Assembly (NCBI GenBank): GCA_902556205.1
Contig: CACDVH010000007.1
Span: forward strand, 1-64,000
DNA: 64,000 nucleotides
Reading direction: 5' to 3'
From: an uncultured Gammaproteobacteria bacterium
Lineage (GTDB): Bacteria; Pseudomonadota; Gammaproteobacteria; PS1; Pseudothioglobaceae
Made by a program: the position numbers and the translations under genes
Notes under the pieces: model-generated
The model's database searches: none
Told to the model about the DNA's origin: nothing
Seen by the model: the letters and a program-made list of their open reading frames with translations, nothing else
Shown here: positions 3,243 to 49,993 of the stretch, in pieces
Numbering within the stretch: the first letter of the stretch is position 1
Layout of the letters: each line of letters opens with the position of its first letter

Positions 3243-4375
3243 TTTTATTTTTATTAAAAAAGCTCCTACTTTTTTATAAATTTTTCAAAATCGATACGCC
3301 ACTTTTTATTCTTCTGATTTTGCTTTCCTCATTTGGTCTATTAATTTTATATAGCAGCTCAGGTGGCTCACTTAATCTTGTATACAGGCAAATGATTCAT
3401 TTAGGATTAGCCACTTCGGTCATGCTTGTAATAGCCCAAATACCACCCATCATTATGCTTCGAGCATCACCAATACTCATGATTCTTGGCGTTTTTCTGT
3501 TAATCCTAGTTCTATTTTTTGGTAGCTCAGGTGGTGGCGCTCAAAGATGGCTTGATTTAGGTTTTGTTAGATTCCAGCCATCTGAATTGATGAAAATCAT
3601 ATTGCCAATGACGATTGCTGCTATCCTCAGTGAAAAAACTCTTCCTCCTAGAGCGTTTCCTGTCATTATTTCACTCATAACGATTGTAACTGTGGTTCTT
3701 CTAATAGCAAGACAACCCGATCTTGGCACCTCACTATTGATTGGGGCCTCAGGAATCTATGTTTTATTCTTTTCAGGCTTCAGAGTAATGCTTGTGAGAA
3801 GCATTTGGCTTAATCTTGCAATCTTGATAAGTCTCTTCGCTGGGTCACTCTATTTTGCCTGGAACTATTTATTGATTGCTTACCAAAAAAGGCGAATTCT
3901 AACTCTGTTTAATCCAGAATCTGACCCGCTTGGCTCAGGCTACCATATTATTCAATCAAAAATAGCTATCGGCTCTGGAGGGTTTACTGGAAAAGGCATC
4001 GTAAGAGGCTCCCAGTCTCAACTTGATTTTGTGCCCGAGCAATCCACTGATTTCATTTTCTCTGTTTTAGCTGAAGAACTTGGGTTTATTGGATTTTTAT
4101 TACTAATTATTATTTATTCACTCATTATTTTCAGATGCATGAGTTTGTCTCTACGCTGTGAGGACAATTTTTCTAGGCTGCTAGGGGCAAGCCTCACCTT
4201 TGTGTTTTTTACTTACATTTTTGTCAATATTGGCATGGTGTCAGGCTTATTACCTGTTGTTGGAGTCCCACTACCTTTAATAAGCTATGGCGGGTCCTCT
4301 TTGATTACATTAATGGCTAGCTTTGGGATTATTATGTCAATTCACAAACATAAAAGTCCAAGATATTTACAGTAA
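3239..4375 (+). CDS. rodA: Rod-shape-determining peptidoglycan polymerase RodA
   Basis: SEDS-family glycosyltransferase that polymerises lateral-wall peptidoglycan with PBP2 in the elongasome, in the inner membrane. It has 378 residues and about ten membrane helices. The SEDS hallmarks are seen: GAQRWLDLGFVRFQPSELMK in the middle, RQPDLGTSLL after it, the FVPEQSTDFIFSVLAEELG loop and the C-terminal VVGVPLPLISYGGSS. The start ATG overlaps the preceding stop (ATGA). It is followed by dacA at 83 bases, a familiar rodA/dacA arrangement, though here no lytic transglycosylase or rlpA lies between them. Confidence 0.97.
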   Translation: MILFLLKKLLLFYKFFKIDTPLFILLILLSSFGLLILYSSSGGSLNLVYRQMIHLGLATSVMLVIAQIPPIIMLRASPILMILGVFLLILVLFFGSSGGGAQRWLDLGFVRFQPSELMKIILPMTIAAILSEKTLPPRAFPVIISLITIVTVVLLIARQPDLGTSLLIGASGIYVLFFSGFRVMLVRSIWLNLAILISLFAGSLYFAWNYLLIAYQKRRILTLFNPESDPLGSGYHIIQSKIAIGSGGFTGKGIVRGSQSQLDFVPEQSTDFIFSVLAEELGFIGFLLLIIIYSLIIFRCMSLSLRCEDNFSRLLGASLTFVFFTYIFVNIGMVSGLLPVVGVPLPLISYGGSSLITLMASFGIIMSIHKHKSPRYLQ

Positions 4376-35375: not shown

Positions 35376-35386
35376 GGAGTTTGCAA

Positions 35387-36502
35387 ATGGAAGGACATGT
35401 CAACTTTACGCTATCAGATCGCTTAAGAAAGTCGCCCTATTATGAGTCTACTCTGAAAGCAGGCGCCAAAACTTTCACAATCTATAACCACATGATCATG
35501 CCCACTTCTTATGAGGGAGCTGAAGCGGATTACTGGAACCTAATGAATAATGTCACCATGTGGGATGTTGCTGCTGAACGCCAAGTTGAGATTACTGGAA
35601 GTGACGCCTACAGGTTTGTTGAATACATTACCTCAAGAGACCTTTCAAAGCTCCAGATTGGTCAAGGAAAATATGCTCTGATCACTGATGAAGATGGTGG
35701 AATCATCAATGATCCTATCATTTTAAGACTGGGTGAGAGTCATTTTTGGCTATCGATTGCAGACAGTGATGTGCTACTTTGGACCCGTGGCCTTGCCTGT
35801 GGACTTGGATGGGATGTTAATATTTGTGAGCCAGATGTCTCCCCCTTAGCAATTCAAGGCCCTAACCATTTACCTTTAATGATTGATTTATTTGGAGACT
35901 GGGTTAAAGATGTTAAGTACTTCTTTTTTAGAGAATACGAACTTGAAGGAATACCTCTAATTGTTCAAAAGTCAGGATGGAGCAAACAGGGAGGCTTTGA
36001 GCTCTATCTTCGTGACGGATCACAAGGTGAAAAGCTATGGGACATCGTTGCTGGTGCAGGAAAGAAATATGACATTAAGCCAGGAACCCCAAATAATATC
36101 GAAAGGGTTGAATCGGGACTATTCTCATGGGGAAATGATATGGATATCAATAGTAACCCGTTAGAGCTTCCATTAGGTAATTTTTGTCAACTGGATAAAG
36201 AGGCTGATTACTTAAGCAGGGAAGCTCTTCATAAGATACGCTCTGAAGGTGTTACCAAAAAACTTGTTGGACTGATTGTCGATGGTGATCCATTTGTTGG
36301 CGGTTGTGCCAGCCCATGGCAGGTCATGAGTGATAATCAAATGTGCGGCAAAGTTTCTAGTGCTGCTTACTCTCCAAGATTAAAAATTAATATGGCTATG
36401 GCGACAATAGATAGCGCTCATAATGCAATTGACTCCGAGGTCACTGTTGAAACGCCATGGGGTTTAAGATCTGCAAAAGTGACTTCGATTCCCTTTAATT
36501 AA
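35387..36502 (+). CDS. dmdA: Dimethylsulfoniopropionate demethylase (DmdA-like, GcvT family)
   Basis: Cytoplasmic tetrahydrofolate-dependent demethylase of the GcvT family, 371 residues, DmdA length (about 369 in SAR11). DmdA turns DMSP into methylmercaptopropionate, passing the methyl to folate. DmdA-type segments seen in order: YNHMIMPTS, WDVAAERQVEI, SRDLSK, DEDGGIINDP, WLSIADSDVLLW, KSGWSKQGGFE, GTPNNIERVESGL and SWGNDMD. These resemble the SAR11 protein more than glycine-cleavage T proteins. The start is ATG 35387 with GGAG eleven bases upstream. A paralogous GcvT-family methyltransferase is the alternative. dmdB/C/D are not in the window. Confidence 0.82.
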   Translation: MEGHVNFTLSDRLRKSPYYESTLKAGAKTFTIYNHMIMPTSYEGAEADYWNLMNNVTMWDVAAERQVEITGSDAYRFVEYITSRDLSKLQIGQGKYALITDEDGGIINDPIILRLGESHFWLSIADSDVLLWTRGLACGLGWDVNICEPDVSPLAIQGPNHLPLMIDLFGDWVKDVKYFFFREYELEGIPLIVQKSGWSKQGGFELYLRDGSQGEKLWDIVAGAGKKYDIKPGTPNNIERVESGLFSWGNDMDINSNPLELPLGNFCQLDKEADYLSREALHKIRSEGVTKKLVGLIVDGDPFVGGCASPWQVMSDNQMCGKVSSAAYSPRLKINMAMATIDSAHNAIDSEVTVETPWGLRSAKVTSIPFN

Positions 36503-36778: not shown

Positions 36779-37489
36779 TTACTTGTTACCAAAGCTTGAG
36801 CAAACCTTTTGGGAGGTTGATATCAACTCCTCTAAAAAGCTTTCAATATTCTCGTCATTGAATCTACTAATAAGGCCTGACAGCGAAAGAACACCAATGA
36901 GTTCACTATCTCGACCTAAAACAGGAACTGAGATGCCAGCAATTTCAGGATCACGCTCTCCACGACTAATATAGTATCCTTGGTTCTGTATAACTATAGA
37001 TTGAGATGTTTTAGAGTTTACAAATGCTTCAAGAACCTTTCCAGAAGAGCCTAAATTAAGCGGAGTAATTTCTCCTTCATCAATATGATAGCGCATTCTT
37101 CTTTTAGAATTTTCGCAATAAAGAACTACACCTGAATTTCCACGCAAAACATGAAAAGCAGCTGTTTCTGTTGTTTTTTCAACAAGCTCAATCAACGCTG
37201 GACGAATTATTTTTCCCAACTGAAGATTATCTCGGTAAATTGAACCAGCTTTCCATAATGAAGACCCAAGATGAAAATTGCCATCATCATCTCGAGAAAG
37301 ATAGCCAAACTTTTCAAGTGAGGCACTAAGTCGAAGTATTGTAGCTTTATTTAGGCCTGTTCTTTGAGCAAGCTCTTTCAATGTAAGACCATTATCACCC
37401 ATATTAAAAGCTTCAAGAAGACTCAGCGCACGTTCTACGGACTCAACCCCACTTTTGATAGGTTTTATTTTTTCTGTCGATTTGGCCAT
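36779..37489 (-). CDS. IclR-family transcriptional regulator
   Basis: Regulator of 236 residues. An N-terminal winged helix (about 13-75: VERALSLLEAF, LTLKELAQRTGLNKATILRLSASLEKFGYL) is followed by the IclR ligand domain (about 90-230). It is divergent from the spermidine-type ABC/ureohydrolase operon at 37695, with a perfect GAAAC-N3-GTTTC dyad in between, so it probably controls that operon in response to its substrate or a breakdown product. It converges on the small membrane protein gene. Confidence 0.9.
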   Translation of the reverse strand: MAKSTEKIKPIKSGVESVERALSLLEAFNMGDNGLTLKELAQRTGLNKATILRLSASLEKFGYLSRDDDGNFHLGSSLWKAGSIYRDNLQLGKIIRPALIELVEKTTETAAFHVLRGNSGVVLYCENSKRRMRYHIDEGEITPLNLGSSGKVLEAFVNSKTSQSIVIQNQGYYISRGERDPEIAGISVPVLGRDSELIGVLSLSGLISRFNDENIESFLEELISTSQKVCSSFGNK

Positions 37490-37694: not shown

Positions 37695-38753
37695 ATGAAA
37701 AAATATTCAAAAATAGTGTGTTTAGCGCTATCAATAGGAATGGTACTTGGTCTTAGTAATGTTGCTAAAGCTGATGGCCATTCTGTAATGTTTGCATCAT
37801 GGGGTGGCTCATTCCAAGATGCGCTTAGATCATCTATGCTAGCACCAGCTGCTGCAGATCTTGGCATTGAAGTTAAAGAAGATACAACAAATGGTATTCA
37901 AGATATTCGTGCTCAGATTTCTGCTAATGCCGTAGCTTGGGATGTAGCTGAAATGGAACTTTCTGCTTGTGAGACACTTTCAAGAGATGGAATGTTAGAG
38001 CCTATCGACTATAAAATGGTTGATGCTTCAGGAATTCCATCTGATTTAAGACAAGACAACTATATTGGTTTTATTAACTTCACAAAAGTTATCGCCTACA
38101 GAAAAGATCAGTTTGGTGATAATGGACCACAAAGCTGGGCAGATTTTTGGGATGTTGAAAAATTCCCAGGAAAGCGCGGTATGCATGGAAAAGTTAACTA
38201 CAACCTAGAGGCTGCTCTTATGGCTGATGGTGTAGATAAGAGTGAAATTTATAATGTTCTTTCAACCAAAGCTGGACAGGAACGTGCTTGGGCCAAGCTT
38301 GCTGAAATTGTTCCACATGTGACTGTATGGTATCGTGGAGGATCTCAATCAGCTCAAATTCTTCGCGATGGTGAAGTTGATGTAGTCCACATGGGGCATA
38401 ACCGTGTTGAGAGTGTTGCAAACTCTGGTGTAGATGTTGCTTACACATTCCAGGATGGTACGATGGATGTTGACTGCCTACTTGTACCAAAAGGTGCGCC
38501 AAATTATGACAATGCAATGCATTTAATAAATTCTGTTTTATCAGCGACATCTCAGGCTACATTAGCAAAGACGATGCCTCTTGGTCCTGTAAATAAGTAT
38601 GCATTTGATGCAGGAGTTCTAAGCATTGAGCAAGCAAAGAATGTTAATACTCATCCAGACAATTATGACAAGCAACTTTTAGTAGACCCAAATTTCTACA
38701 TTGGTCAACTCGATATACTAACAGAGCGCTTTGATACGCTTATCCAGCAATAG
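37695..38753 (+). CDS. Spermidine/putrescine-type ABC transporter binding protein
   Basis: Periplasmic solute-binding protein of the PotD (SBP_bac_8-like) class, 352 residues. The signal peptide covers about 1-26 (ending KA-DGHS). The mature protein opens VMFASWGGSFQDALRSS, a PotD-family mark, and keeps the hinge segment near FINFTKVIAYRKDQFG. Context with four ureohydrolases suggests a cationic guanidino compound or polyamine as ligand, but the binding residues cannot be judged by eye. A hairpin terminator follows, then the ATPase. AAAGGAG precedes the ATG. Confidence 0.88.
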   Translation: MKKYSKIVCLALSIGMVLGLSNVAKADGHSVMFASWGGSFQDALRSSMLAPAAADLGIEVKEDTTNGIQDIRAQISANAVAWDVAEMELSACETLSRDGMLEPIDYKMVDASGIPSDLRQDNYIGFINFTKVIAYRKDQFGDNGPQSWADFWDVEKFPGKRGMHGKVNYNLEAALMADGVDKSEIYNVLSTKAGQERAWAKLAEIVPHVTVWYRGGSQSAQILRDGEVDVVHMGHNRVESVANSGVDVAYTFQDGTMDVDCLLVPKGAPNYDNAMHLINSVLSATSQATLAKTMPLGPVNKYAFDAGVLSIEQAKNVNTHPDNYDKQLLVDPNFYIGQLDILTERFDTLIQQ

Positions 38754-38844: not shown

Positions 38845-39945
38845 ATGTCAAATACAGACAACGAAAATCATAAATCTTTACCGATTGGGATCAAAAGCTT
38901 AAGCAAATCCTATGGTGATGTTTATGCTCTAGAGAATGTTTCATTAGATATTAAGGCTGGAGAATTTATCACCTTACTTGGGCCCTCTGGATCCGGAAAA
39001 ACAACCTTATTGATGACTATAGCAGGATTTTGTAGTCCAGATCAGGGTAGTATTTATTTTGGTCAGCAAGAAATGACCATGACGCCACCTCACATGCGTG
39101 GTTTGGGAATGGTATTCCAGAATTATGCACTATTTCCGTTTATGTCAGTCGCTGAAAATGTTGGTTATCCACTTCGTGTTCGAGGCATGACAGATTCAGA
39201 TCAAAAAACTAAAATTGAAGCAGCCCTTGAAATGGTTCAACTTGGAGGATATGGTGAACGAAGAATTCACCAACTTTCAGGTGGACAAAAACAGCGCGTT
39301 GCTCTTGCACGTGCAATGGTTTTTGAACCTAAGATTATTTTGATGGATGAGCCTCTTTCTGCATTGGATAAAAAGTTACGAGAGCACATGCAAATAGAAC
39401 TCAAGGCGCTTCATCAGAAACTTGAAGCAACTATTGTCTATGTGACACATGACCAGCGAGAAGCATTGACTATGTCAGATCGTATCGCAGTTATTAATAA
39501 TGGTCGTCTTGTTCAAGTTGATGCCCCAAAGGCACTATATGATAATCCGAATGACTTATTTGTTGCTGATTTTATTGGTGAATCAGTTCTTCTTCAATTA
39601 GAGAATTCAATCAAAGGTCTTACTCTAAGGGGCAAGCCCTTAAAAATGACAAATCCTCAACCCAAAGGTGGGGAACCGCACTGTCTTGTTATTCGACCTG
39701 AGCTTCTAGTGATGTCTAATTCAAAAGATGATTCTTTGAATGATCTTTCTGGAATAGTAAATGCATCGGTCTATCAGGGAGAAAGTGTACTAGTCATGGT
39801 AGATCTTGGTGAAAACACTATGATTAGCGTCAGATTACCTGCTAACAAGTCACAAAGCAGTAATATTATTCCTGATGTAGGTAAGCCAATATATCTTGGT
39901 CTTCATGCTGAAGATGTTATTACCGTTAAAGGAAGAGTTGAATGA
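38845..39945 (+). CDS. Spermidine/putrescine-type ABC transporter ATPase
   Basis: Cytoplasmic ATPase of 366 residues, PotA type. Walker [10 protein letters not shown] near 48, Q-loop [10 protein letters not shown] near 92, signature [15 protein letters not shown] near 145, Walker [14 protein letters not shown] near 167, H-loop YVTHDQREA near 200. A C-terminal TOBE regulatory domain (about 280-360) is present. Overlaps the next permease by four bases. It lies downstream of the attenuator. Confidence 0.93.
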
Positions 39946-40838
39946 ATATAGCCTCTAACAATCAATTAGAAGGTCTTAATAGTAAGGAACTTGCAAAAGC
40001 CCGTCGAAAAGAAGGTCGATTGTTTTTTAACTTATCACTTCCATCACTTATCACCATTTTGATAGTTGTATTTATTCCAGTATTCTGGCTATCATCTCTT
40101 TCATTTTTTGACCGCGCGGGAGATTTCTCTTGGGAGAATTATGATCGAATTTTTCAAAGTCAACTCTATATCAAGACATTCATAGTTACACTCAAAATAA
40201 GTTTTATTACCTTATTCTTTTGCATACTGCTTGGTTACCCGTTGTGTTACTGGTTATCACAACTTCCCAACCGTTTAGCAAGTATCCTGATGATCTTTGT
40301 TTTGCTGCCGTTTTGGACTTCAATTCTGGTAAGAACATATGCCTGGCTCGTTATTCTCCAACGTAATGGAATTATTAACGACACCCTTATTTCAATAGGA
40401 TGGATTGATGAACCACTTCAATTAGCACATAATTTAACCGGAAGTATTATTGGCATGGTTCATATTTTATTACCATTTTTCATACTTCCACTATTCGCAT
40501 CAATGCGCTCAATTGATAACAATTTCATTAGAGCTGCAATTAGTTTAGGTTCAACACCTCGGGGTGCATTCTGGCAGGTGTTCTTCAAAATGTCTCTGCC
40601 AGGTTTTTTTGCTGGAACAGTGCTTGTATTTGTTCTTGCATTAGGGACTTATGTAACACCAGCCTTGCTTGGAGGTGGAAAAATACAGATGCTGGCTCAA
40701 CGAATAGATTCAACTATTATGCTCTATTCAAACTGGGGCGCAGCAAGTGCGCTTGGTGTAGTTCTTCTGATTTTGGCGTTTGCCGTAATCTGGATCTTCA
40801 ATCGTGCCTTTGGCATTGATAAATTGTTTATGAGGTAG
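39942..40838 (+). CDS. Spermidine/putrescine-type ABC permease 1
   Basis: PotB-type inner-membrane permease, 298 residues with about six helices and a long basic N-terminus. The coupling loop is RAAISLGSTPRGAFWQVFFKMSLP near 205-228, with the family pattern G-A-x-x-x-x-x-F-x-x-V-x-x-P. ATGA overlap with the ATPase gene indicates coupled translation. Confidence 0.9.
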   Translation: MNIASNNQLEGLNSKELAKARRKEGRLFFNLSLPSLITILIVVFIPVFWLSSLSFFDRAGDFSWENYDRIFQSQLYIKTFIVTLKISFITLFFCILLGYPLCYWLSQLPNRLASILMIFVLLPFWTSILVRTYAWLVILQRNGIINDTLISIGWIDEPLQLAHNLTGSIIGMVHILLPFFILPLFASMRSIDNNFIRAAISLGSTPRGAFWQVFFKMSLPGFFAGTVLVFVLALGTYVTPALLGGGKIQMLAQRIDSTIMLYSNWGAASALGVVLLILAFAVIWIFNRAFGIDKLFMR

Positions 40839-40843
40839 GTAGA

Positions 40844-41659
40844 ATGGCTGCAGTCGAAATGGTTGGCAAAAGAAAATATAATAATCTCTGGCTTGATTTC
40901 GCTGGAGTTTGTATACTCTTCTTTCTTGCACTTCCAACTTTTATAGTAATTCCAATGTCATTTTCTGGAGCCTCATATTTGGAGTTTCCTCCTGAGTCAT
41001 GGTCGTTTCGTTGGTATGAGTCTTATTTTGGGTCGAGTGAATGGATGAGGTCAACAAGAACTTCATTGCTTGTTGCTTTTCTAACTACAATTATTGCAAC
41101 TCCACTAGGATCTTTAGCAGCTTATGGACTAACATTTACATCTGCAAGAGTGCGGAATGTCTCTCAATTAATTGTAGTTGTTCCAATCCTTGTGCCAGTA
41201 ATTCTAATTGCAATTGGTGTGTTTCATCTTTATGCAAAACTTGGTCTAAATTACACAATCACTGGAATCGTTATTGCTCACACTTCATTAGCAGTCCCAT
41301 TTGTTATTATTACTGTACTTGCTGGGTTAAAAAATTATGACTTCAATCAAGAGCTCGCTGCAAGAAGTCTTGGTGCATCTCGCCCAAGAGCTCTTTTAAC
41401 AATTACCCTCCCTCAAGTAAAATTTTCTATCCAAACTGGTGCATTGCTAGCATTTATTACTTCTCTAGACGAAGTAGTTGTCTCAATGTTTGTTTCGGGT
41501 GGAGAAAATGCTACGATTACAAGACGAATGTTTAATTCTTTAAGGGATCAGGTTGACCCAACTATAGCTGCGATATCATCTTGTCTGATCATTATCTCTG
41601 TCAGTGCTTTAGTTACCGTCCTTATTTTTAATAGGAATCAAAGCAAGGATCAAATATGA
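40844..41659 (+). CDS. Spermidine/putrescine-type ABC permease 2
   Basis: PotC-type permease, 271 residues with six predicted helices. The coupling loop AARSLGASRPRALLTITLPQ near 173-192 and the FITSLDEVVVSMFVSG segment near 205-220 are family hallmarks. Starts six bases after the first permease. The ureohydrolase genes follow 57 bases later on the same strand, so transporter and enzymes probably share an operon. Confidence 0.92.
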   Translation: MAAVEMVGKRKYNNLWLDFAGVCILFFLALPTFIVIPMSFSGASYLEFPPESWSFRWYESYFGSSEWMRSTRTSLLVAFLTTIIATPLGSLAAYGLTFTSARVRNVSQLIVVVPILVPVILIAIGVFHLYAKLGLNYTITGIVIAHTSLAVPFVIITVLAGLKNYDFNQELAARSLGASRPRALLTITLPQVKFSIQTGALLAFITSLDEVVVSMFVSGGENATITRRMFNSLRDQVDPTIAAISSCLIIISVSALVTVLIFNRNQSKDQI

Positions 41660-41716: not shown

Positions 41717-42679
41717 ATGAGTAAGAATTTTGGTGAATCTTCAACAGCTAGTGCAACATTTGCTGGATTTCCTGAAAGAAATCTAGAAGATATTTCTCAA
41801 GGAAGTATTGTTGTTTTTGGAGCGCCTGCTGACTCTACTTTACCCAGAAGAAGTGGATGTTCAAAGGGTCCCAAGGCTATAAGACAGGCTACTATGAATG
41901 CACTATCTTGTTATTTTAATTCTCCATCAAAGTCGGTCGTATCAATTGACACAGGAAAGACTACTCGATTCAGAAGTGAAGCGGTTGGGATAGATCTTGG
42001 AGACCTCGCAGACTGTACTGAGGTTTCAACAGAGACTTTAAAACAAATTGAAAAATTAACTACAGGTATAAATGATCAAGGTGGACTGCCAGTTATTCTT
42101 GGGGGGGATGGAAGAATTCTAGAGGGATTTGTTAATGGTCTCCAAAGATCTTTACCTGAGCTTGGAGTGCTTGTTTTTTCAAACCGATTAGATATACCAG
42201 AAGCAAACGATCTACCCTCTAAAGCACTTTCTACGCTTCTCACATCGAAGCCTAGTTCTGAAAGTTATCCCCTGCTAGCTATAGGTACAAATGGCATCCA
42301 ACCTCATAAAAACTGGAAAGAAATACAGAAGATTCATGGAAACATTATTTCCGCTGAGGATATTCATGATCAGGGTATAGATGCTGCCTCAAATGAGATT
42401 CAACAATTCTCTCTTCAGAACAAGCAAATTTTGTGCGTAGTAGATGCTGGAGTTTTGGATACTGGATATGCAGCAGGAACACCGAGTTTAAACGTCGGCG
42501 GTCTATCACCTTTGCAGTTAATTGATATTCTTTCTAAAACTAATTTTACTGAAAAGTTAGTAGGTGTTTGTGTATCAAATGTTGCACCTTCACTTGATGC
42601 TCGAGGTCATTCTCAATACGCTAGTGCAGAGGCACTATTAGCAATACTCGGTGAGAGACTTTTTGAGGATATTTCCTGA
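41717..42679 (+). CDS. Degenerate ureohydrolase paralogue 1 (arginase/agmatinase fold)
   Basis: Ureohydrolase-fold protein of 320 residues. N-terminal signature GAPAD..RSGCSKGPKAIRQAT and the nucleotide-like fold order match agmatinases. Metal-binding motifs are altered. The GGDH motif reads GGDG (Gly132 for His). The DAHxD motif reads SNRLD (155-159), losing Asp and His. The DxD motif reads DAG (243-245), losing the second Asp. Only two of six ligands remain, so it is unlikely to bind the usual two metals. It may be a structural or regulatory subunit for the paralogue at 44623. It overlaps the next paralogue by one base (TGATG). Confidence 0.82.
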   Translation: MSKNFGESSTASATFAGFPERNLEDISQGSIVVFGAPADSTLPRRSGCSKGPKAIRQATMNALSCYFNSPSKSVVSIDTGKTTRFRSEAVGIDLGDLADCTEVSTETLKQIEKLTTGINDQGGLPVILGGDGRILEGFVNGLQRSLPELGVLVFSNRLDIPEANDLPSKALSTLLTSKPSSESYPLLAIGTNGIQPHKNWKEIQKIHGNIISAEDIHDQGIDAASNEIQQFSLQNKQILCVVDAGVLDTGYAAGTPSLNVGGLSPLQLIDILSKTNFTEKLVGVCVSNVAPSLDARGHSQYASAEALLAILGERLFEDIS

Positions 42680-43614
42680 TGAGTAAAGTCGATTTAAACC
42701 TATCAATGCAGTCAGTACCATCTTTTTTTGGTGCTCCAATTGGTGATATTGAAGACCTTTCAGAGAAAAAAATAGCTGTTGCAGGGCTATTCTGTGACCA
42801 TTTTTCTCAGGGTGAGCCAGGCGCGAGATATGCAGCTAGGCAATTAAGGTATGCATCGACTCCATTGTTAGCTAATGGACTCAAAATTTCTACTCCTAGC
42901 AACATTATTGACGTTGGTGAGTTAAATGTTTTTCCAATTGAGCCTATAAAAACGCAGTCAATTTTAGAAGAACAAAGCTCTAGGATTCAACAAACCGGTG
43001 CTAGACTTCTCGCATTGGGTGGAGACTATAGCCTCATTCCTGCTTTGGTATCTGGGCAGTTAAAGGCAAAACCCGATTGTCATTTGAAATTTATTCGAAT
43101 TTCACGCAATCTGGATGCAGCAGAAACCCCAGTTGCACAAAAAAACCCAATGAATCGTTCATCTGCAACAAGACAAATTGCTGAATTCTGCGGTGGTGCA
43201 AGTTCAATTGCAATGCTTGGTGTTAGTGATTTAAGCTCCATAGAGGAGTATGAATATTTATCTGATGGCTTTGTTCGTTCTGCTCATCAACTTTCAAAAT
43301 CCTTAACAGGATTATCCGAACAGATAGTCGATGATCTGCAAGACGAAGAGGTTGGCTTTTATCTTAGTGTAGATGTCGATGTTCTTGCATTACCTTCTAT
43401 TCGCTCTAATTCTCCATACCTTGGAACTGGTCTTTCGCCAGAGCAGCTAACCTCACTCATCTCTGAACTTGGAAAGCTACCCATCATAGGTGCTGATGTT
43501 ACTGGATTTATACCGGACCTAGATCTTTCGGGCAGCGCTGCGAGTCTCACTGTTATCGAGATTATTAGGTGCGTGATTGAAGCAATGTCTCAGGAGAGCG
43601 CCTTATGCCACTGA
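42679..43614 (+). CDS. Degenerate ureohydrolase paralogue 2
   Basis: Ureohydrolase-fold protein of 311 residues. The GGDH motif reads GGDY (Tyr117) and DAHxD reads SRNLD (142-146), while the DxD pair is kept as DVD (232-234) inside LSVDVDVLA. The Asp of the following DP is Ala237. Three of six ligands remain. Starts inside the TGATG overlap with paralogue 1 and overlaps paralogue 3 by ten bases, so all three are likely made in fixed ratio. Catalysis looks lost. Confidence 0.82.
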   Translation: MSKVDLNLSMQSVPSFFGAPIGDIEDLSEKKIAVAGLFCDHFSQGEPGARYAARQLRYASTPLLANGLKISTPSNIIDVGELNVFPIEPIKTQSILEEQSSRIQQTGARLLALGGDYSLIPALVSGQLKAKPDCHLKFIRISRNLDAAETPVAQKNPMNRSSATRQIAEFCGGASSIAMLGVSDLSSIEEYEYLSDGFVRSAHQLSKSLTGLSEQIVDDLQDEEVGFYLSVDVDVLALPSIRSNSPYLGTGLSPEQLTSLISELGKLPIIGADVTGFIPDLDLSGSAASLTVIEIIRCVIEAMSQESALCH

Positions 43615-44600
43615 GAACCGCTCCAATTCCACGTATGGCCGGCCATTTGTCATTTATGAGGTCAGTTAGGGCAAATTTTGAGGATTTATCATCAGGATCA
43701 CTAGCAGTCATTGGTGCTCCGATGGAAGATAGTAACAATCTAAAGTCTGGAGCACGCTTTTCGCCTTTGGCAATAAGAGAAACGTCAGTCTATTTTGGAT
43801 GGTATGCCAATCCACAATTCAGTAATCCAATTAATATTGATGAGCTAGAGTTGTTTGACACATCATCTATCAACGAACAACTGTTTGATCTTGGAGATAT
43901 TCCAATTTTAGGACAAACTAAATTCAAAGCTGATGAGCTAATTACTCGTTCAATTGAAGAAGTCTATAAGCGCAATGCAACGAGCATTGTCCTTGGTGGA
44001 GATAGCAGCATTATTGCTCCAGTTTCAAGAGGCATTGCAGAAGGTAAGTCTGCCGCATATATTCAAATTGGTGGGAAAACGCCAGGTACTTCGAATACAG
44101 AGCTGAGTCAACAAACTTCTGCACCACTTGCTTCTCTGTTAGCAAGCGGAAAAGTTAAGCTGAAAGATACATGTATACTCGCCCCATCTGAGAATCCTTC
44201 TGTAGAGTTTATTAAGGAGCTTACAGACACTAGTGCAAAAATATTTTCATCAAACCAACTTAATAATATGGACTCAAATGAGATTTCAGATTTAAGTCTA
44301 ACATTATCGAACCGTAATTTACCAGTCATTGTTAACCTTGACCTATCGTCAGTATCCTCAGAGCTTCATGGTATGTCGGATAAACCAGTATTTAACGGAA
44401 TGAGTCTAAAACTGTTAAGGCGAGTTTTAGTGGCAATTGCCAGAGCGCCTATAGCCACCCTAATTTTGACGGGTCATAACCCAACAGTCAATGGACTAAG
44501 CATAGTAAAAACTGGCCAGCGTCTAATTGTTACTGCGCTGGTTGGATACCTCTGTTCACGCCTGGGACTTATTAACGATTTCAAATCTAATGATAATTAA
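43605..44600 (+). CDS. Degenerate ureohydrolase paralogue 3
   Basis: Ureohydrolase-fold protein of 331 residues, the most eroded copy. GGDH reads GGDS (Ser134). DAHxD reads GGKTP (156-160), with all ligands gone. DxD reads DLS (246-248). One of six ligands is left. The N-terminal half still carries GAPMED..KSGARFSPLAIRET, equivalent to the GxP..G-x-R-x-x-P-x-A-I-R signature of the family. The gene is intact and in tight overlap with its neighbour, so it is maintained, not decaying. Probably a non-catalytic subunit. Confidence 0.8.
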   Translation: MPLRTAPIPRMAGHLSFMRSVRANFEDLSSGSLAVIGAPMEDSNNLKSGARFSPLAIRETSVYFGWYANPQFSNPINIDELELFDTSSINEQLFDLGDIPILGQTKFKADELITRSIEEVYKRNATSIVLGGDSSIIAPVSRGIAEGKSAAYIQIGGKTPGTSNTELSQQTSAPLASLLASGKVKLKDTCILAPSENPSVEFIKELTDTSAKIFSSNQLNNMDSNEISDLSLTLSNRNLPVIVNLDLSSVSSELHGMSDKPVFNGMSLKLLRRVLVAIARAPIATLILTGHNPTVNGLSIVKTGQRLIVTALVGYLCSRLGLINDFKSNDN

Positions 44601-44622
44601 TAAAAGGAGAAAACTTTAATTT

Positions 44623-45609
44623 ATGTCAAATTATCCAAAAATGAATACTGTCGCCTCCTCTCTATTTGGAGCGCCGCTAGGATCTCCAAAACAGCTTAAA
44701 CCTGGGGTTCTTGGAGTAGTTGGGATGCCATCTGATTGGACACATTCCAGTCGTATTGGAACGCGTTTTGGTCCAGATGCATTAAGAGTAGCAACAACAG
44801 AAATATCAAAATCCATATCAAATGATCAAACTGAATTGTTCGACCCTACTGTGAAAAGTGTACTTCGAAAACGACAAGATGGTTGGATTATTGATTGTGG
44901 TGACGCTGATATTTTCCCTGATAGTGTTGAGGATACAACTGAATCAATAGCTTCTATGACACAAGCAGTTACTGCAGCTGGTGCAATTCCGCTTGCATTA
45001 GGAGGTGACCACTACAATGGCTACCCTTCCTGCCTTGGTTATTCAAGAGGTCTTTTAGATCGGGATCCAAATCGAAAGTTTGGTTACATCCAGGTTGATG
45101 GACACTTAGATTTTACAAATCGTCTTGGAGCTTGGGGTAAATACAATCATGCTACTAATGGTCGACGCATTACTGAAGTCTCTAATATTATTCAAGCAAA
45201 TATGGTTTGGATTGGCATATCAGGCTGGATTGATGGAGGCGAGTATGAGTTAATTGAGAGTATGGGAGGAAAGGTTTTCTCTTCTCAGGATGTTCATCGC
45301 CTTGGATCCGCCAAAGTTATGGAGCTTGCTATTGAGCATGCAACAAGAGGATGCGAAAGCCTATATGTTTCTCTTTGCATTGATGCTATGGATGCTGGCT
45401 ATTTACCTGGTACAGGATCAATTGTTCATAGTGGGATTACTCCAAGACAATATTGCCAAATGCTTGATATTCTCTCTGAAGCACCATTTGATGGGCTGGA
45501 TATTGTAGAAACCTGCCCACCACTTGACCCCTCAGGACGCACACAACAAATTGCTGGACATCTCCTCTTACGCACTCTTCGTAAGTATATGTTCCAAACT
45601 GGTAAGTAA
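44623..45609 (+). CDS. Ureohydrolase paralogue 4, probable catalytic subunit
   Basis: Arginase/agmatinase-family enzyme of 328 residues. Ligands seen: His130 in LGGDHYN, Asp159/His161/Asp163 in VDGHLDF, and Asp254 in the third motif. That motif reads SLCIDAMDAGYLPGTG, where the first Asp of DxD is Cys252, a notable change from S-x-D-x-D. Five of six ligands are kept and Cys can also bind metal, so it is likely active on a guanidino (or formimidoyl) substrate, releasing urea (or similar). AGGAG precedes the ATG by about 14 bases. It is the last of the four tandem paralogues. Confidence 0.85.
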   Translation: MSNYPKMNTVASSLFGAPLGSPKQLKPGVLGVVGMPSDWTHSSRIGTRFGPDALRVATTEISKSISNDQTELFDPTVKSVLRKRQDGWIIDCGDADIFPDSVEDTTESIASMTQAVTAAGAIPLALGGDHYNGYPSCLGYSRGLLDRDPNRKFGYIQVDGHLDFTNRLGAWGKYNHATNGRRITEVSNIIQANMVWIGISGWIDGGEYELIESMGGKVFSSQDVHRLGSAKVMELAIEHATRGCESLYVSLCIDAMDAGYLPGTGSIVHSGITPRQYCQMLDILSEAPFDGLDIVETCPPLDPSGRTQQIAGHLLLRTLRKYMFQTGK

Positions 45610-45617
45610 AATTGATT

Positions 45618-46328
45618 ATGCACATTTTTGAAGGTATTAAATCTTTTGGCTCTCTATATCATGACAAAGAGCCTCAGCCTCTTCCAACTCGCCCATGGGT
45701 TGTTGATTTCTCTATATTACCAGTACCCTATAAGGGTATGAAACCTGGCAATATTGCAGAGTTTGAGCCTAGTCCTGATTGGAGTCGATGGTGGTTGGGA
45801 GATACCTCAAGCAATACTAAAAATACATTAAACTGGATTGTTCTTAATGACAATACTCGCCGTCTTTATATCTGCGATCGCATGATTCTTGTTCGCGTTA
45901 GTTGGCAAGATTTATATGATGCGGGATATGTTGATGGAAAAATGACCATCATTGATGGAAAAAAATATAAATGTCGATTAATGACTGGAGGTAATGATTT
46001 TTATGATGAGAATAACGGTCTAAGCGGTGGTCTTCCAGCAGATAACGAATGGGATCGTTTTATCTCTGGTGGAGAAACGATTAAGGGTTTGCCATCATTA
46101 TCTTCCAATGATAAGATTGGAGTCTTAAGTGATGAGGTACTTCAAGCACCGCATAATCAATTCTGGAATTGGGCTGGTGCATACAGCTGGACTTCAATGC
46201 CATATTTAAATCGGGACAATGCTCGTTGTTGTCGGGGTTATGAGGCCGGTCAGTGTTTTTACTTAAATACCTTTGATCATCGGCATGAGGATATTGGTTG
46301 GCGACCTGTTTTAGAGGAATTACTATGA
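45618..46328 (+). CDS. Unrecognised protein with a C-type-lectin-like ending
   Basis: Protein of 236 residues I cannot assign. It is rich in Trp, Tyr, Asp and Gly, has no signal peptide or membrane helix, and ends with RCCRGYEAGQCFYLNTFDHRHEDIGWRP-like features (key parts: CCRGYEAG, IGWRPVLE). The tail resembles the GFRPVL ending of formylglycine-generating-enzyme/C-type-lectin-like proteins. The middle NEWDRFI also recalls that group. ATG at 45618 is preferred to an in-frame TTG at 45612. It overlaps the aldehyde dehydrogenase by four bases (ATGA), so it belongs to the operon. Its role there is unknown. Confidence 0.65.
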   Translation: MHIFEGIKSFGSLYHDKEPQPLPTRPWVVDFSILPVPYKGMKPGNIAEFEPSPDWSRWWLGDTSSNTKNTLNWIVLNDNTRRLYICDRMILVRVSWQDLYDAGYVDGKMTIIDGKKYKCRLMTGGNDFYDENNGLSGGLPADNEWDRFISGGETIKGLPSLSSNDKIGVLSDEVLQAPHNQFWNWAGAYSWTSMPYLNRDNARCCRGYEAGQCFYLNTFDHRHEDIGWRPVLEELL

Positions 46329-47818
46329 CTATTCAAAATAATAATGAACATGAGATAAAACATAACTTCATTGCAGGAGAATGGCGAAATAGCTCAAATC
46401 ACATCCAAAATATTAATCCATCAGACACAAATGATGTAATCGCTAGTTACTCAATTGCCACAAAAGATGACGTTGAAGATGCAGTTTTAGCAGCAATGAG
46501 TGCACTACCAGCCTGGTCATCCAGCACTTCTGGAGAGAGATTTGATATTCTTGATGCAATCGGCACGGAGATTATTCAACGTAAAGATGAATTAGGCGAC
46601 CTTTTAGCTCGCGAAGAAGGAAAAACACTCAAAGAAGCGGTGGCTGAGGCTCATCGTGCGGGTAGCCTCTTTAAGTTTTTTGCAGCTGAAGTTTATCGCT
46701 CTCATACAGAGGGTTATCGTTCACTTCGGGAAGGCATATCGCTTCAGGTTCAGCGCGAACCAATCGGTGTAGTTGCTGCTATAACACCCTGGAACTTTCC
46801 ATTGGCGATTCCTGCATGGAAAATTGCACCAGCGCTTGCTTATGGCAATACAGTTGTTTTCAAACCTTCTGAACTGGTATGTGGGTCTGCATGGGCTCTT
46901 GCAGAGATTATTTCTAGAGCAGGTCTCCCAGATGGCGTATTTAACCTATTGATGGGACAAGGCTCGGAAACAGGCGCCGCTATTGTGGAACACCCAAATG
47001 TGGCAGGCGTCACCTTCACTGGCTCTTCAGATATTGGACGCAAGATTGGCGCCAGTGTATTTGCACGAGGCGGCAAGATTCAGCTTGAAATGGGCGGTAA
47101 GAATCCACTCATTGTACTTGATGATGCTGACCTCGATAAAGCTGTCGAATACGCAATCAATGGCGCATTCTTTTCTTGTGGACAACGATGCACTGCCTCT
47201 TCTCGACTAATTGTCACTAAAAATATTCATGATTCTTTTGTCGATGCAATGTCAAATCGAATCGAACTTCTTAGAATTGGAGATGCACGAAATCCAAATA
47301 CAGATATTGGCCCTGTTGTTAGTGAAGCACAGCTTAAGAAAAACCTTGAATACCTTCAAATTGGTTTGAAGGATGGTGCAAAGCAATTAACGGGTGGAAA
47401 ACAAGTTGAACAGGCTACACCTGGGTGGTATTTATCGCCAGCACTTTTTATTGATGCTAAGAGTGAGATGAAGATTTGTCGTGAGGAAATATTTGGACCA
47501 ATTGCTGCCGTAATGCCTGTAAATGATTATGATGAAGCGCTCAATCTAGCTAATGATAGTGAATTTGGCCTTTCAGCAGGAATTGTTACAAATGATCGTT
47601 TGATAATTGATCACTTTATAGACAACATCCAATCTGGAATGGTACAGATTAATCTTCCAACTGCTGGTATGGATTTTCACGCGCCGATTACTGGTCGAAA
47701 AAATTCATCATTTGGTCCACCTGAAAAGAGTAGTTATTGCCGTGAGTTTTTCACAAATACAAAGGTGGTACACGCAAATTATGGTAAACGCTTAAATTCT
47801 AAAAAGGAGGAGTCATGA
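46325..47818 (+). CDS. Aldehyde dehydrogenase (semialdehyde type) of the ureohydrolase operon
   Basis: NAD(P)-dependent aldehyde dehydrogenase, 497 residues. Catalytic Cys289 in [12 protein letters not shown], general base Glu255 in LEMGGKNPL, cofactor loop FTGSSDIG. It resembles succinate- and 2-oxoglutarate-semialdehyde dehydrogenases. The ATG at 46325 in the ATGA overlap is chosen; a nine-residue longer frame lies inside the previous gene. Likely oxidises an aldehyde produced after removal of the guanidino group. Overlaps the CoA-transferase gene by four bases. Confidence 0.88.
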
Positions 47819-49011
47819 AATCTCTAGCGGGGTATCGCGTACTTGATCTTTCAAATGTTCTCTCTGGGCCCTTCTGTACCTGTCAATTAGCTCATCTTGG
47901 AGCTGAAGTTATAAAAATTGAATTCCCTATCAGGGGTGATTTAGCAAGACAATTGGGGTTGGATATTGAACTCAATCAAAAACTCATGGGTGCTACTTTT
48001 CTTGCTCAAAACTCAGGTAAACGCTCAATTACCATTAATCTTAAAACAGCAGAGGGAGTCGATGTATTTAAGCGCCTAGTGAAAACTGCTGATGTTTTAG
48101 TCGAAAACTTCAGGCCAGGAGTCATGGATCGTCTTGGTTTAGGCTATGAAGTGCTACGAGATTTAAATCCAAATCTAGTTTATTGTGCAATATCTGGCTT
48201 TGGACAAGAAGGCTCACTAAAAAGTCGACCGGCATATGATCAAATTATTCAAGGCATGTCAGGCACTATGAATATTACAGGTGATAAAGAATCAGCCCCT
48301 CTAAGGGTAGGTTATCCTATAGCTGACACTATTGGAGGTTTGACAGCAGCCTTTGCCGTTTCAGCTGCACTTGCACAGCAAGGAGGAAAGCGTGGAACCT
48401 TTATAGACGTTTCAATGCTGGAATCTGTAATGTGTACAATGGGTTTTCAAATTTCAAACTACTTTAACGCTAATACAGAACCTCAAGCGATGGGTAATGA
48501 AAATTTTACGAGTAGTCCATCAGGAACATTTAAAACGAGCAATGGACAAATAAATATTGCTGCCAATAAACAGGAGCAGTTTGAAGCAATGTGCCAAGTT
48601 TTAGGTCTTAATGAACTGCTTGAAAATCCTAAATTTGCGACCAGAGAGGCAAGACTCGAAAATCGCACTGAACTCTCTGAGATTCTAAACTCAACCCTAA
48701 AGACTCGTTCTACAGATGAGTGGACTGAATCATTAAACAATGTTGGAGTACCCTGTGGCCCTATCTTAACTGTACCAGAGGCGCTTGCTCAACCGCAGAT
48801 TGCAGAGCGTGGAATGGTAGGTACTTATTCCGATGTTCCAGGAGTAGGTCGAGATATTCAAATTACTCGAACGGGTATCAAACTTGATGGAAAAGCACCA
48901 ACTGTTGATAACCCGCCTCCAATGCTTGGAGAGCACACTGACGAGATTCTGGGTGAGCTTGGTTTGACGGATACTGAAATCAAAACACTTAAAGAGCAAA
49001 AAGCGATATAA
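47815..49011 (+). CDS. CaiB/BaiF-family CoA-transferase
   Basis: Class III CoA-transferase of 398 residues. The family opening LAGYRVLDLSNVLSGPFCTCQLAHLGAEVIKIE and the NLKTAEG..LVKTADVLVENFRPGVMDRLGLGYE pattern are present in part-quoted form: LDLSNVLSGPF, GAEVIKIE, NFRPGVMDRLG. The catalytic Asp is expected in PAYDQIIQGMSG near 142. It moves CoA from a donor (often succinyl-CoA) to a carboxylic acid. AAGGAGG precedes the start, which overlaps the previous stop (ATGA). With the lyase downstream it suggests an acid-to-CoA-thioester-to-cleavage route. Confidence 0.9.
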   Translation: MKSLAGYRVLDLSNVLSGPFCTCQLAHLGAEVIKIEFPIRGDLARQLGLDIELNQKLMGATFLAQNSGKRSITINLKTAEGVDVFKRLVKTADVLVENFRPGVMDRLGLGYEVLRDLNPNLVYCAISGFGQEGSLKSRPAYDQIIQGMSGTMNITGDKESAPLRVGYPIADTIGGLTAAFAVSAALAQQGGKRGTFIDVSMLESVMCTMGFQISNYFNANTEPQAMGNENFTSSPSGTFKTSNGQINIAANKQEQFEAMCQVLGLNELLENPKFATREARLENRTELSEILNSTLKTRSTDEWTESLNNVGVPCGPILTVPEALAQPQIAERGMVGTYSDVPGVGRDIQITRTGIKLDGKAPTVDNPPPMLGEHTDEILGELGLTDTEIKTLKEQKAI

Positions 49012-49057: not shown

Positions 49058-49993
49058 ATGAGTGAAATTGACATTGAGGTGAGTGAAGTTGGACCCAGAG
49101 ATGGTCTGCAAAGTATAAGTCAGATCATGCCCACTGAGTCTAAAAAGAGATGGATTAAGGCTTTGGCTTTAGCAGGCATTCCTGAGATTGAAGTTGGATC
49201 ATTTGTTCCAGCTCATATTTTCCCTCAGCTTTCAGATACTATGGAGATAGCAAAGTATGCTGGGACTATTGAAGGCCTCAAAGTGGCTGCATTAGTGCCA
49301 AACTTGAGGGGAGCTGAAAATGCCATCCTCGCAGGAGTAAATAAGCTGACTATTCCCCTATCTGTCAGTGAGACTCACAGCATGAGAAATGTCAATCGAA
49401 CGCATGACCAGATGCTGGATGAAGTGAAGCGAATAGTCGAGCTAATTAGAGATCTTCCAATCGATGAGAGGCCTTTAATTGAAGGTGCACTCTCAACCGC
49501 ATTTGGCTGCACTATTGAAGGCAGCATTTCGGAGGATCGGGTCGTGGAACTGGCGGAGGCATTAATGGAGGCAGGATGCAGTGAGGTTGGCCTCTCAGAT
49601 ACAACCGGTTATGCCAATCCTGTTCAGGTTAAGCGACTCATTGGAAAGGTTTGGGATGCAATTGGTCGTGATCATCTTACGGGAATTCATCTGCACAACA
49701 CACGTGGTCAAGGATTGGCAAATGTATTAGCAGCGTTGGAAGTTGGACTGACCACCATTGACTCATCAATGGGGGGTATTGGCGGCTGTCCCGCAGCTCC
49801 AGGAGCCAGCGGTAATATAGTTACTGAAGATCTAGTTTTCTTACTAGAGGCAATGGGTCTAAAAACGGGTATTGATTTTGATAAGCTCATTTCTGCTAGA
49901 AATGTCGTTGCTAAAGCGCTACCGGATGTTGAATTGTATGGCTTCACACCGGATGCTGGGTTACCTCTTAGCTCTCCCTCACACATCAAATGA
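49058..49993 (+). CDS. Hydroxymethylglutaryl-CoA lyase-family enzyme
   Basis: DRE-TIM metallolyase of 311 residues. VGPRDGLQ at 11-18 has the catalytic Arg and metal Asp. HLHNTRGQG near 215 gives two metal His. The mobile loop GGIGGCPAAPGASGN near 240 has the family's essential Cys. Cleaves a 3-hydroxy-3-methyl-type acyl-CoA to a ketone body plus acetyl-CoA, or citramalyl-type esters. The substrate in this operon may be a product of the CoA-transferase 46 bases upstream. Leucine catabolism is the usual home, but no other leucine genes are here. Confidence 0.88.
   Translation: MSEIDIEVSEVGPRDGLQSISQIMPTESKKRWIKALALAGIPEIEVGSFVPAHIFPQLSDTMEIAKYAGTIEGLKVAALVPNLRGAENAILAGVNKLTIPLSVSETHSMRNVNRTHDQMLDEVKRIVELIRDLPIDERPLIEGALSTAFGCTIEGSISEDRVVELAEALMEAGCSEVGLSDTTGYANPVQVKRLIGKVWDAIGRDHLTGIHLHNTRGQGLANVLAALEVGLTTIDSSMGGIGGCPAAPGASGNIVTEDLVFLLEAMGLKTGIDFDKLISARNVVAKALPDVELYGFTPDAGLPLSSPSHIK

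Follow-up and report, generated by a model that had tools for sequence, protein, structure and literature searches.

The question raised by this locus was why one operon should encode four adjacent proteins of the arginase fold when none of them carries the standard metal site of ureohydrolases. In the window, the whole analysed stretch of 64,000 nucleotides, the initial annotation had reported four intact genes of this fold at positions 41717-45609, and four complete forward-strand reading frames were found there: U1 (41717..42679), U2 (42679..43614), U3 (43605..44600) and U4 (44623..45609). They matched PF00491 with 112.2, 87.9, 56.6 and 191.6 bits, respectively, all above the curated Pfam cut-off of 22 bits, which assigned them to the ureohydrolase superfamily. 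An alignment at the six metal positions revealed that two of the six ligands were retained in U1 (GSRDDG), three in U2 (YSNDDD), one in U3 (SGKPDS) and five in U4 (HDHDCD), in agreement with the counts of the initial annotation. U1-U3 were classed as ureohydrolase-fold pseudoenzymes and U4 as the presumed catalytic subunit, and the standard dinuclear site (HDHDDD) was found in none of the four. The comparison set consisted of 51 non-cassette ureohydrolases from the fetched loci, three of which were cut by contig ends and left out. An alignment artefact at the metal motifs was ruled out because the same alignment yielded HDHDDD in all 48 controls with all six columns, and intact motifs in U1-U3, which the annotation had named as contrary evidence, did not appear on it.

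The patterns of U1 and U2 were identical in the four genomes carrying the cassette. U3 kept a single ligand in all four, with CGKPDS instead of SGKPDS at locus L073. U4 was HDHDCD throughout, with Cys252 standing for the first Asp of the SxDxD motif, and two additional positions held H and E in every carrier. The earlier picture of three intact pseudoenzymes beside one catalytic copy therefore held for the pseudoenzymes, which were intact and under selection, and had to be qualified for U4, whose own site was altered. With one standard ligand missing, U4 may fall outside the usual type of hydrolase. Its scores were below the NCBIfam equivalog cut-offs for agmatinase (97.0 against 174.3), arginase (91.3 against 227.6) and formimidoylglutamase (101.2 against 229.15), and those of U1-U3 were even lower.

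Profile scans confirmed the neighbours named in the initial annotation. An IclR-family regulator (36779..37489, reverse strand; PF01614/PF09339 over cut-off) was divergent from the operon, and it also adjoined the cassette at loci L067 and L073 (82-84% identity). All other genes were on the forward strand. The importer consisted of a PotD-type binding protein (37695..38753; PF13416, 127.1 bits), a PotA-type ATPase (38845..39945; TIGR01187 potA, 366.8 bits, cut-off 355.6), a PotB-type permease (39942..40838; NF007044, 170.5 bits, under the equivalog cut-off of 348) and a PotC-type permease (40844..41659), the last assigned from its position and a weak blastp match to the PotB-type permease. Solved relatives of the PotD-type protein included MotA and agropine-, mannopine-, polyamine- and GABA-type binding proteins. 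Downstream of U4 were orf238 (45618..46328), a further operon gene overlooked in the initial annotation, and an aldehyde dehydrogenase (ALDH, 46325..47818; PF00171, 516.5 bits), whose start was taken as the ATG overlapping orf238, the PF00171 scan having been run from 46298. They were followed by a CaiB/BaiF CoA-transferase (47815..49011), with succinate--glutarate CoA-transferase as its best NCBIfam match (310.8 bits, under the cut-off of 750), and an HMG-CoA-lyase family protein (49058..49993; PF00682, 170.4 bits), placed among the HMG-CoA lyases by NF004283 (280.2 bits against a cut-off of 246). The ALDH, CoA-transferase, lyase and importer genes upheld a catabolic setting. No enzyme converting an amine to an aldehyde by deamination was recognised among the operon genes in the profile scans, so that the link between the ureohydrolase product and the ALDH was missing.

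The spacing of the genes was tight and largely constant. As had been described, short overlaps joined the first three paralogues, one base at U1/U2 and 10 bases at U2/U3, and a gap of 22 bases separated U3 from U4. Counted from U1 onward, five of the seven junctions were identical to the base in all four genomes: U2/U3 (-10), U3/U4 (22), U4/orf238 (8), orf238/ALDH (-4) and ALDH/CoA-transferase (-4). The genes from U1 through the lyase were present at both further loci retrieved from genome contigs.

The co-occurrence check proposed with the annotation gave a strict result, with all four genes or none: all four were present in 3 of 29 genomes of the genus and none in the other 26. Doubtful fragments in G006, G018 and G020 were 90-97% identical to the ordinary gene of the genus, L001. 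The whole cassette was also found in one Pseudomonadales MAG, giving four known carriers, three of them from one genus. A widespread cassette was not borne out by wider searches of class, phylum, family, viral and plasmid sequences, which relied on drawn samples or on peptide patterns, so that carriers can escape them. The U4 profile matched 12 of 369 class genomes at E <= 1e-25, only the window's own (763.8 bits; next, 121.4 bits) at the level of an ortholog; the U2 profile among 398 phylum genomes and the orf238 profile among the 369 class genomes each matched the window's own alone. The known carriers G005 and G010 were absent from the lists of all three of these searches. Two of 116 genomes in the family of carrier G448 matched U4, G448 itself (762.5 bits) and G549 (94 bits). 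A U4 ortholog parted from its companions, a pattern that the annotation had held would speak against it, was not seen in the samples searched. Viral contigs gave no match for U3 or U4, nor for orf238 when cassette-only patterns were used, and the plasmid records with relatives of U4 (443) or U3 (133) were all below 60% identity.

All four genes are under purifying selection. Across all six genome pairs, omega was 0.16-0.24 for U1, 0.14-0.31 for U2, 0.10-0.22 for U3 and 0.07-0.13 for U4, and U3, with the fewest ligands, had a lower value than U1 and U2 in 6/6 pairs. The motif loops are the most constrained part of U4, with 70 of 73 positions invariant against 203 of 255 elsewhere (4 of 10000 shuffles as high). 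The former pocket loops of U1 were also conserved above the rest (52/69 against 150/250; 148 of 10000 shuffles as high), and no such clear difference was found in U2 (1127/10000) or U3 (4811/10000). U2, U3 and U4 shared just 17-25% identity with U1, and the tree grouping U1-U4 on one side had weak support (83/88), with long branches meeting. The four genes may therefore have been brought together instead of arising by local duplication.

The best solved relatives of U4 were "agmatinase 2" and guanidinopropionase entries. The "agmatinase 2"/guanidine hydrolase entries PDB 7esr/7oi1 and 9fek, the latter presumably the N. inopinata enzyme, were at the top for U4 (101.7 and 100.3 bits) and also for U1 (52.0 and 50.1 bits). 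U4 aligned with 7esr only from residue 86 of 392 onward and is missing one ligand. PMC11410670 describes 7oi1, which shares its sequence with 7esr, as a guanidinase, and describes 7OI1 and the N. inopinata enzyme as hexamers of the single-chain type, modelled with nickel and manganese.

Metformin hydrolase, the parallel drawn in the initial annotation, was distant in sequence, its best chain scoring 65.8 bits to U4. It is described as an alpha2beta4 enzyme that is inactive without its degenerate subunit (PMC11399263) and as nickel-dependent, with hypA/hypB beside its genes (PMC11399263, PMC11271267). By the account of PMC11271267, three to five of the six ligands are mutated in the MetCb clade and all six are retained in the MetCa clade, and hypA/hypB lie near most, not all, of the MetCaCb pairs. 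As in MefH/MetCaCb and DmgH in these accounts, adjacent ureohydrolase genes lay here in a catabolic operon with a degenerate partner beside a near-complete copy, and the ligands lost from U2 (three), U1 (four) and U3 (five) were within the range given for MetCb. Unlike those systems, which are described as two genes with a six-ligand alpha subunit, nickel and adjoining hypA/hypB, this cassette had four genes, a U4 with five ligands and Cys252, by motif at the position of D276 in MefH-alpha, and no hypA or hypB among its genes in the profile scans. HypA was found in none of the four carrier genomes (control matches in 7/14), and the HypB matches in three of them all stayed under the cut-off of 121.2 bits, the highest being that of G448 with 87.0 bits. 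The parallel was thus kept for the degenerate partners and lost for the nickel chaperones and the active site; judged from sequence, the altered U4 site and the missing chaperones argue against membership in the metformin-hydrolase type.

The reading that we prefer, to which we give about an even chance, is that U1-U4 form one heteromeric ureohydrolase-fold enzyme, with U4 catalytic and U1-U3 as pseudoenzyme subunits, feeding the ALDH, CoA-transferase and lyase. The one metal centre close to complete would be that of U4, where Cys252 replaces a ligand Asp. U1, U2 and U3 would be distinct subunits, needed in trimers or hexamers of mixed composition for the assembly or the shape of this centre, on the model of the metal-free beta subunit of metformin/dimethylguanidine hydrolase. 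The substrate of the complex would be a small imported molecule, cationic or zwitterionic and in all likelihood a guanidino or amidino acid, in which a C-N bond would be hydrolysed; its carbon skeleton would pass through an aldehyde (ALDH) and a CoA thioester (CoA-transferase) to an HMG-CoA-lyase-type cleavage into acetyl-CoA and a keto acid. Mevaldate/HMG-like or 3-hydroxyglutarate-like skeletons would fit these three enzymes. The protein orf238 may be an accessory whose frozen face binds a constant partner, either the complex, its metal or its ligand. We infer complex formation, catalysis by U4, the substrate class, the order of reactions and the role of orf238 alike. The literature search found nothing on Thioglobus with agmatinase, and work on homarine and on guanidino compounds and osmolytes gave no substrate lead. 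The heteromer is supported by the intact genes, fixed ligand patterns, all-or-none presence, low omega, exact junctions, the constrained motif loops of U4 and the metformin hydrolase precedent. Counted against it are the small number of carriers, the ligand missing from U4, the failure to find urease in the three carriers of the genus or HypA in the four genomes, the missing step from amine to aldehyde, and the divergence and weak tree grouping of the paralogues; nor does a ureohydrolase trimer have any obvious need of four different chains. A bolder version, possible but doubtful, is an obligate four-chain enzyme lacking a standard site, in which a bridging-Cys metal centre in U4 would be completed or gated by U1-U3 and aided by a phage-type lectin-fold protein with its hypervariable face frozen to one partner. 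It would open a route of hydrolysis, oxidation, CoA transfer and HMG-CoA-lyase-type cleavage for a marine nitrogen compound so far tied to no pathway.

The heteromer might also form without releasing urea, which we regard as unlikely, if a different or single-metal centre created by the Cys-for-Asp exchange acted on another C-N bond (amidine, formimino, amide or enamine). Such chemistry could directly supply an aldehyde to the ALDH in an operon where no deaminating enzyme was recognised, and it is favoured by the invariance of Cys252 in four genomes, by U4 scores as far under cut-off as that for agmatinase, and by the lack of a HypA match in the carriers. Urease was likewise not found in the three carriers of the genus (G000, G005 and G010), so that urea, if released, would not enter the urease route. 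Against it, U4 retained five ligands together with the additional H and E, and its closest solved relatives were "agmatinase 2" and guanidinopropionase, with 7oi1 described as a guanidinase (PMC11410670).

Separate action of the proteins, with U4 as the enzyme and U1-U3 as ligand-binding sensors, storage proteins or pathway regulators, is less probable still. The great divergence of U2-U4 from U1 would suit it, as would the conserved former pocket loops of U1, which a retained ligand pocket would also show, but the overlaps and spacings between the genes were fixed, and degenerate ureohydrolases are described as obligate partners in PMC11399263 and PMC11271267. That U1-U3 are relics of duplication on the way to loss is highly improbable: three genes with lost ligands beside one near-intact copy could look like decay, but all copies were intact in four genomes with omega well below 1, U3 was more constrained than U1 and U2 in every pair, and the two lineages shared their ligand states, except at one position of U3 where the ligand was gone already. 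Decay was rejected on intactness and omega.

Ureohydrolase-fold pseudoenzyme partners are described as pairs in the accounts of PMC11399263 and PMC11271267. If the heteromer is real, a conserved set of four with an altered catalytic member would extend the pair principle, and U1-U4 would offer a direct test of the way in which a live copy is rescued by dead ones. The cassette points to an unassigned catabolic route in marine Thioglobus-type bacteria.

The product of orf238 is kin to the DGR variable proteins of phages (PHROG 36643, 172.4 bits), which are diversified by retroelements, and probably has a C-type-lectin fold. It was 39% identical to the DGR target of phage Mushu over its full length, including the VR segment. 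Mushu (L097) carries a repeat pair at 1523-1615 and 3578-3670 (85% identical), the second copy of which aligned to residues ~200-230 of orf238; the protein to which orf238 is homologous thus has a VR with a corresponding TR. Unlike DGR variable proteins, orf238 lay in a metabolic operon and its VR-equivalent was conserved (26/31 positions invariant against 132/205 elsewhere), so the variable face is frozen. No reverse transcriptase (RVT_1) was found in the four carrier genomes (control matches in 3/14), and no TR-like template repeat in the stretches scanned, namely the window, L072, L067 and L073, not whole genomes. An active DGR on orf238 was therefore rejected as far as tested. A Foldseek search of PDB with the orf238 model gave nothing at E <= 0.001, and the C-type-lectin fold therefore rests on homology and on suggestive top matches, none significant, to formylglycine-generating-enzyme-fold proteins and Treponema variable protein 1. 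The predicted structure had a pLDDT of 93.0 with 25 rows and 29.8 with 4 rows. The gene points to the recruitment of a phage-type diversifiable domain into metabolism.

The proteins encoded by the tandem genes U1 (41717-42679), U2 (42679-43614), U3 (43605-44600) and U4 (44623-45609) all exceeded the PF00491 cut-off. U2, U3 and U4 were 17-25% identical to U1 of the window, and profile comparison against U4 gave E values of 2e-16, 2e-13 and 1e-7 for U1, U2 and U3, respectively. At the six aligned ligand positions (order H-D-H-D-D-D), U1 carried GSRDDG, U2 YSNDDD, U3 SGKPDS and U4 HDHDCD, giving the same numbers of retained ligands (2, 3, 1 and 5) as the initial annotation, which had described three of the paralogues as having ruined metal sites. 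These states were constant in the four genomes carrying the cassette (the U genes and their neighbours), the sole exception being a C at position one in U3 of L073, the Pseudomonadales locus. A control set of 51 other ureohydrolases was drawn from the retrieved loci and included many near-identical genus orthologs; all six columns were present in 48, every one of which read HDHDDD; the other three were cut by contig ends and agreed with HDHDDD in the letters present. Two further positions, which we take to be equivalent to the catalytic His141 and Glu277 of arginase, were H and E in U4 and were lost in U1-U3. Another ureohydrolase of the genus (L002, L057, L059, L060 and L061) kept the six ligands with A and C at these two positions, where the other controls had H and E. 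The Pseudomonadales carrier genome also contained, at L089, a PF00491 match that includes a single in-frame TAG.

The Cys of U4 replaced the first Asp of the SxDxD motif, which, from arginase, we assume to bridge both metals. As Cys can in principle ligate metal, U4 could have activity at a modified metal centre. By motif, the replaced Asp was equivalent to D276 of the alpha subunit of the metformin hydrolase MefH, one of the six nickel ligands of that subunit (PMC11399263). Invariant sites among the four genomes were counted in “pocket loops”, four motif stretches of our own choice, and elsewhere. The counts were 70/73 vs 203/255 for U4 (4 of 10000 shuffles as high), 52/69 vs 150/250 for U1 (148), 51/68 vs 161/243 for U2 (1127) and 55/71 vs 198/260 for U3 (4811). 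The pocket therefore stood out as the most constrained part of U4; this focus was weak in U1 and not clear in U2 and U3. Omega, calculated by the Nei-Gojobori method for six pairs per gene, was 0.16-0.24 for U1, 0.14-0.31 for U2, 0.10-0.22 for U3, 0.07-0.13 for U4 and 0.15-0.23 for orf238 (45618-46328), the gene following U4; the highest values came from the closest pair, window-G10.

The cassette is real and selected, and was rare in the samples searched. Co-occurrence was compatible with the putative obligate hetero-oligomer of the initial annotation: the four U genes were present together in 3 of the 29 genus genomes (G000, the window's genome, G005 and G010) and all absent from 26, and no carrier with an incomplete set was found in the genus, relatives and genome_contigs samples searched. 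These absences are soft because only 11 of the 29 genomes combine a completeness of 90% or more with contamination of 5% or less. Some PF00491 gene was present in 27/29. Three truncated matches, in G006, G018 and G020, could have concealed cassette members but were 90-97% identical to the ordinary gene of the genus, L001. The U3 query matched 27 of 145 relatives, with full-length orthologs (84-100% identity) in three, including the window's genome, and weak paralogue matches alone in 24. When genome_contigs (84,980 species per the tool description) was scanned with peptide patterns, 91 stretches matched, two of which encoded relatives: L072, from the MAG Candidatus Thioglobus sp. REDSEA-S12_B1 of the same genus as the window, and L073, from an uncultured Pseudomonadales MAG (isolate FRAM_RAS_EGC1617_bin32). 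The genes of L072 matched those of the G010 locus L066, and the two were taken as the same. The cassette ran from IclR through the lyase in L073 and from inside PotA, at the contig end, through the lyase in L072.

In the window, whose genome comprises 1.65 Mb in 32 contigs (92% complete), the + strand order was PotD, PotA, PotB, PotC, U1, U2, U3, U4, orf238, aldehyde dehydrogenase (ALDH), CoA-transferase (CoAT) and HMG-CoA-lyase-type gene, with a divergent IclR gene at the start of the operon. Five junctions were identical in all four genomes (U2/U3 -10, U3/U4 22, U4/orf238 8, orf238/ALDH -4 and ALDH/CoAT -4). The U1/U2 junction varied (-1, -1, 2 and -4, where the value of 2, in L067 of G005, hinges on start codon choice), as did CoAT/lyase (46, 134, -4 and -4). 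A DMSP-demethylase-type gene (35381-36502; NF009133, 423.8 bits against a cut-off of 410) adjoined the IclR gene, and two exporter-type genes occupied that side in L067. Also in L067, IclR was separated from the importer by an additional PotD-type gene (71% identical) together with an alpha/beta-hydrolase-type gene (L067:2628-4488).

The synonymous difference (pS) between the window and L073 was 0.50-0.58 for U1-U4, orf238, ALDH, CoA-transferase, lyase and IclR, vs 0.79-0.88 for PotD, PotB and PotC (importer genes computed without PotA). It therefore seems that these lineages shared the enzyme cassette and its regulator as one unit, and that the importer had a history of its own. In a 52-row tree, U1, U2, U3 and U4 each grouped with strong support (100/97 or higher), whereas their union against the 36 others reached only 83/88, where long branches meet. 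The four genes may have arisen by local duplication and then diverged rapidly.

MefH is an alpha2beta4 hexamer with nickel bound by alpha alone and inactive single subunits (PMC11399263). MetCaCb is likewise a heterohexamer with neither subunit active alone; 56 pairs of this type were reported, with six ligands kept in the Ca clade and 3-5 mutated in the Cb clade (PMC11271267). The U1-U4 set was not classed with the metformin hydrolases because it departed from them in two features. A MefH-type nickel enzyme is disfavoured, since HypA matched in none of the four carrier genomes and HypB in three, never above cut-off (G000 and G010 being only about 90% complete). Among the listed literature on pseudoenzymes of the ureohydrolase type, on heteromeric or arginase-family heterohexamers, and on Thioglobus with agmatinase or guanidino terms, no title or abstract opening mentioned a set of four. 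U1-U4 likely work like a heteromeric ureohydrolase, with a putative complex and a putative substrate.

The solved relatives of the PotD-type binding protein included MotA and agropine-, mannopine-, polyamine- and GABA-type proteins. The lyase passed the HMG-CoA lyase cut-off. Both other enzymes stayed below cut-off: the CoA-transferase came closest to the succinate-glutarate type, and the best resemblance of the ALDH was to alpha-ketoglutaric-semialdehyde dehydrogenases. These enzymes fit a route in which a semialdehyde would be converted to a dicarboxylate, its CoA ester, and then acetyl-CoA and a keto acid. Of the catabolic system for a guanidino compound proposed in the initial annotation, the operon context was supported by the importer, ALDH, CoA-transferase and lyase, and the guanidino substrate is putative. 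A simple urea-release scheme is disfavoured because urease was not found in G000, G005 or G010 and no deaminating enzyme was recognised in the operon. A urease alpha match occurred in one of the 29 genus genomes (L096, G017).

orf238 had no match in Pfam (E <= 0.1), NCBIfam (E <= 0.01) or a PDB sequence search. It matched six PHROGs, the best two being PHROG 36643 (172.4 bits) and PHROG 1062 (81.1 bits), and gave 15 matches in phage records, five of them covering at least 80% of the query. A Mushu phage protein, 39% identical over a full-length alignment, adjoined Avd and reverse transcriptase genes; its annotated start lay downstream of the homologous start. The Mushu stretch contained a 93-base repeat pair, 85% identical (L097:1523-1615 and 3578-3670), with the second copy within the orf238-matching protein, which is the template repeat/variable region (VR) layout of a diversity-generating retroelement. 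Relatives were encoded at 46 viral-contig loci, 22 of which were aligned with three cassette copies. The predicted model (pLDDT 93.0) had formylglycine-generating-enzyme-fold proteins and Treponema variable protein 1 as best Foldseek matches, none at E <= 0.001. In the cassette copies, the VR-equivalent was the more conserved part (26/31 invariant vs 132/205 elsewhere), no template-like repeat was found in the four cassette stretches scanned, and RVT_1 matched in none of the four carrier genomes. We therefore concluded that orf238 is a “frozen”, domesticated member of a phage retroelement variable protein family. Within the VR-equivalent, two Cys and two His were invariant; speculatively, these residues could bind metal.
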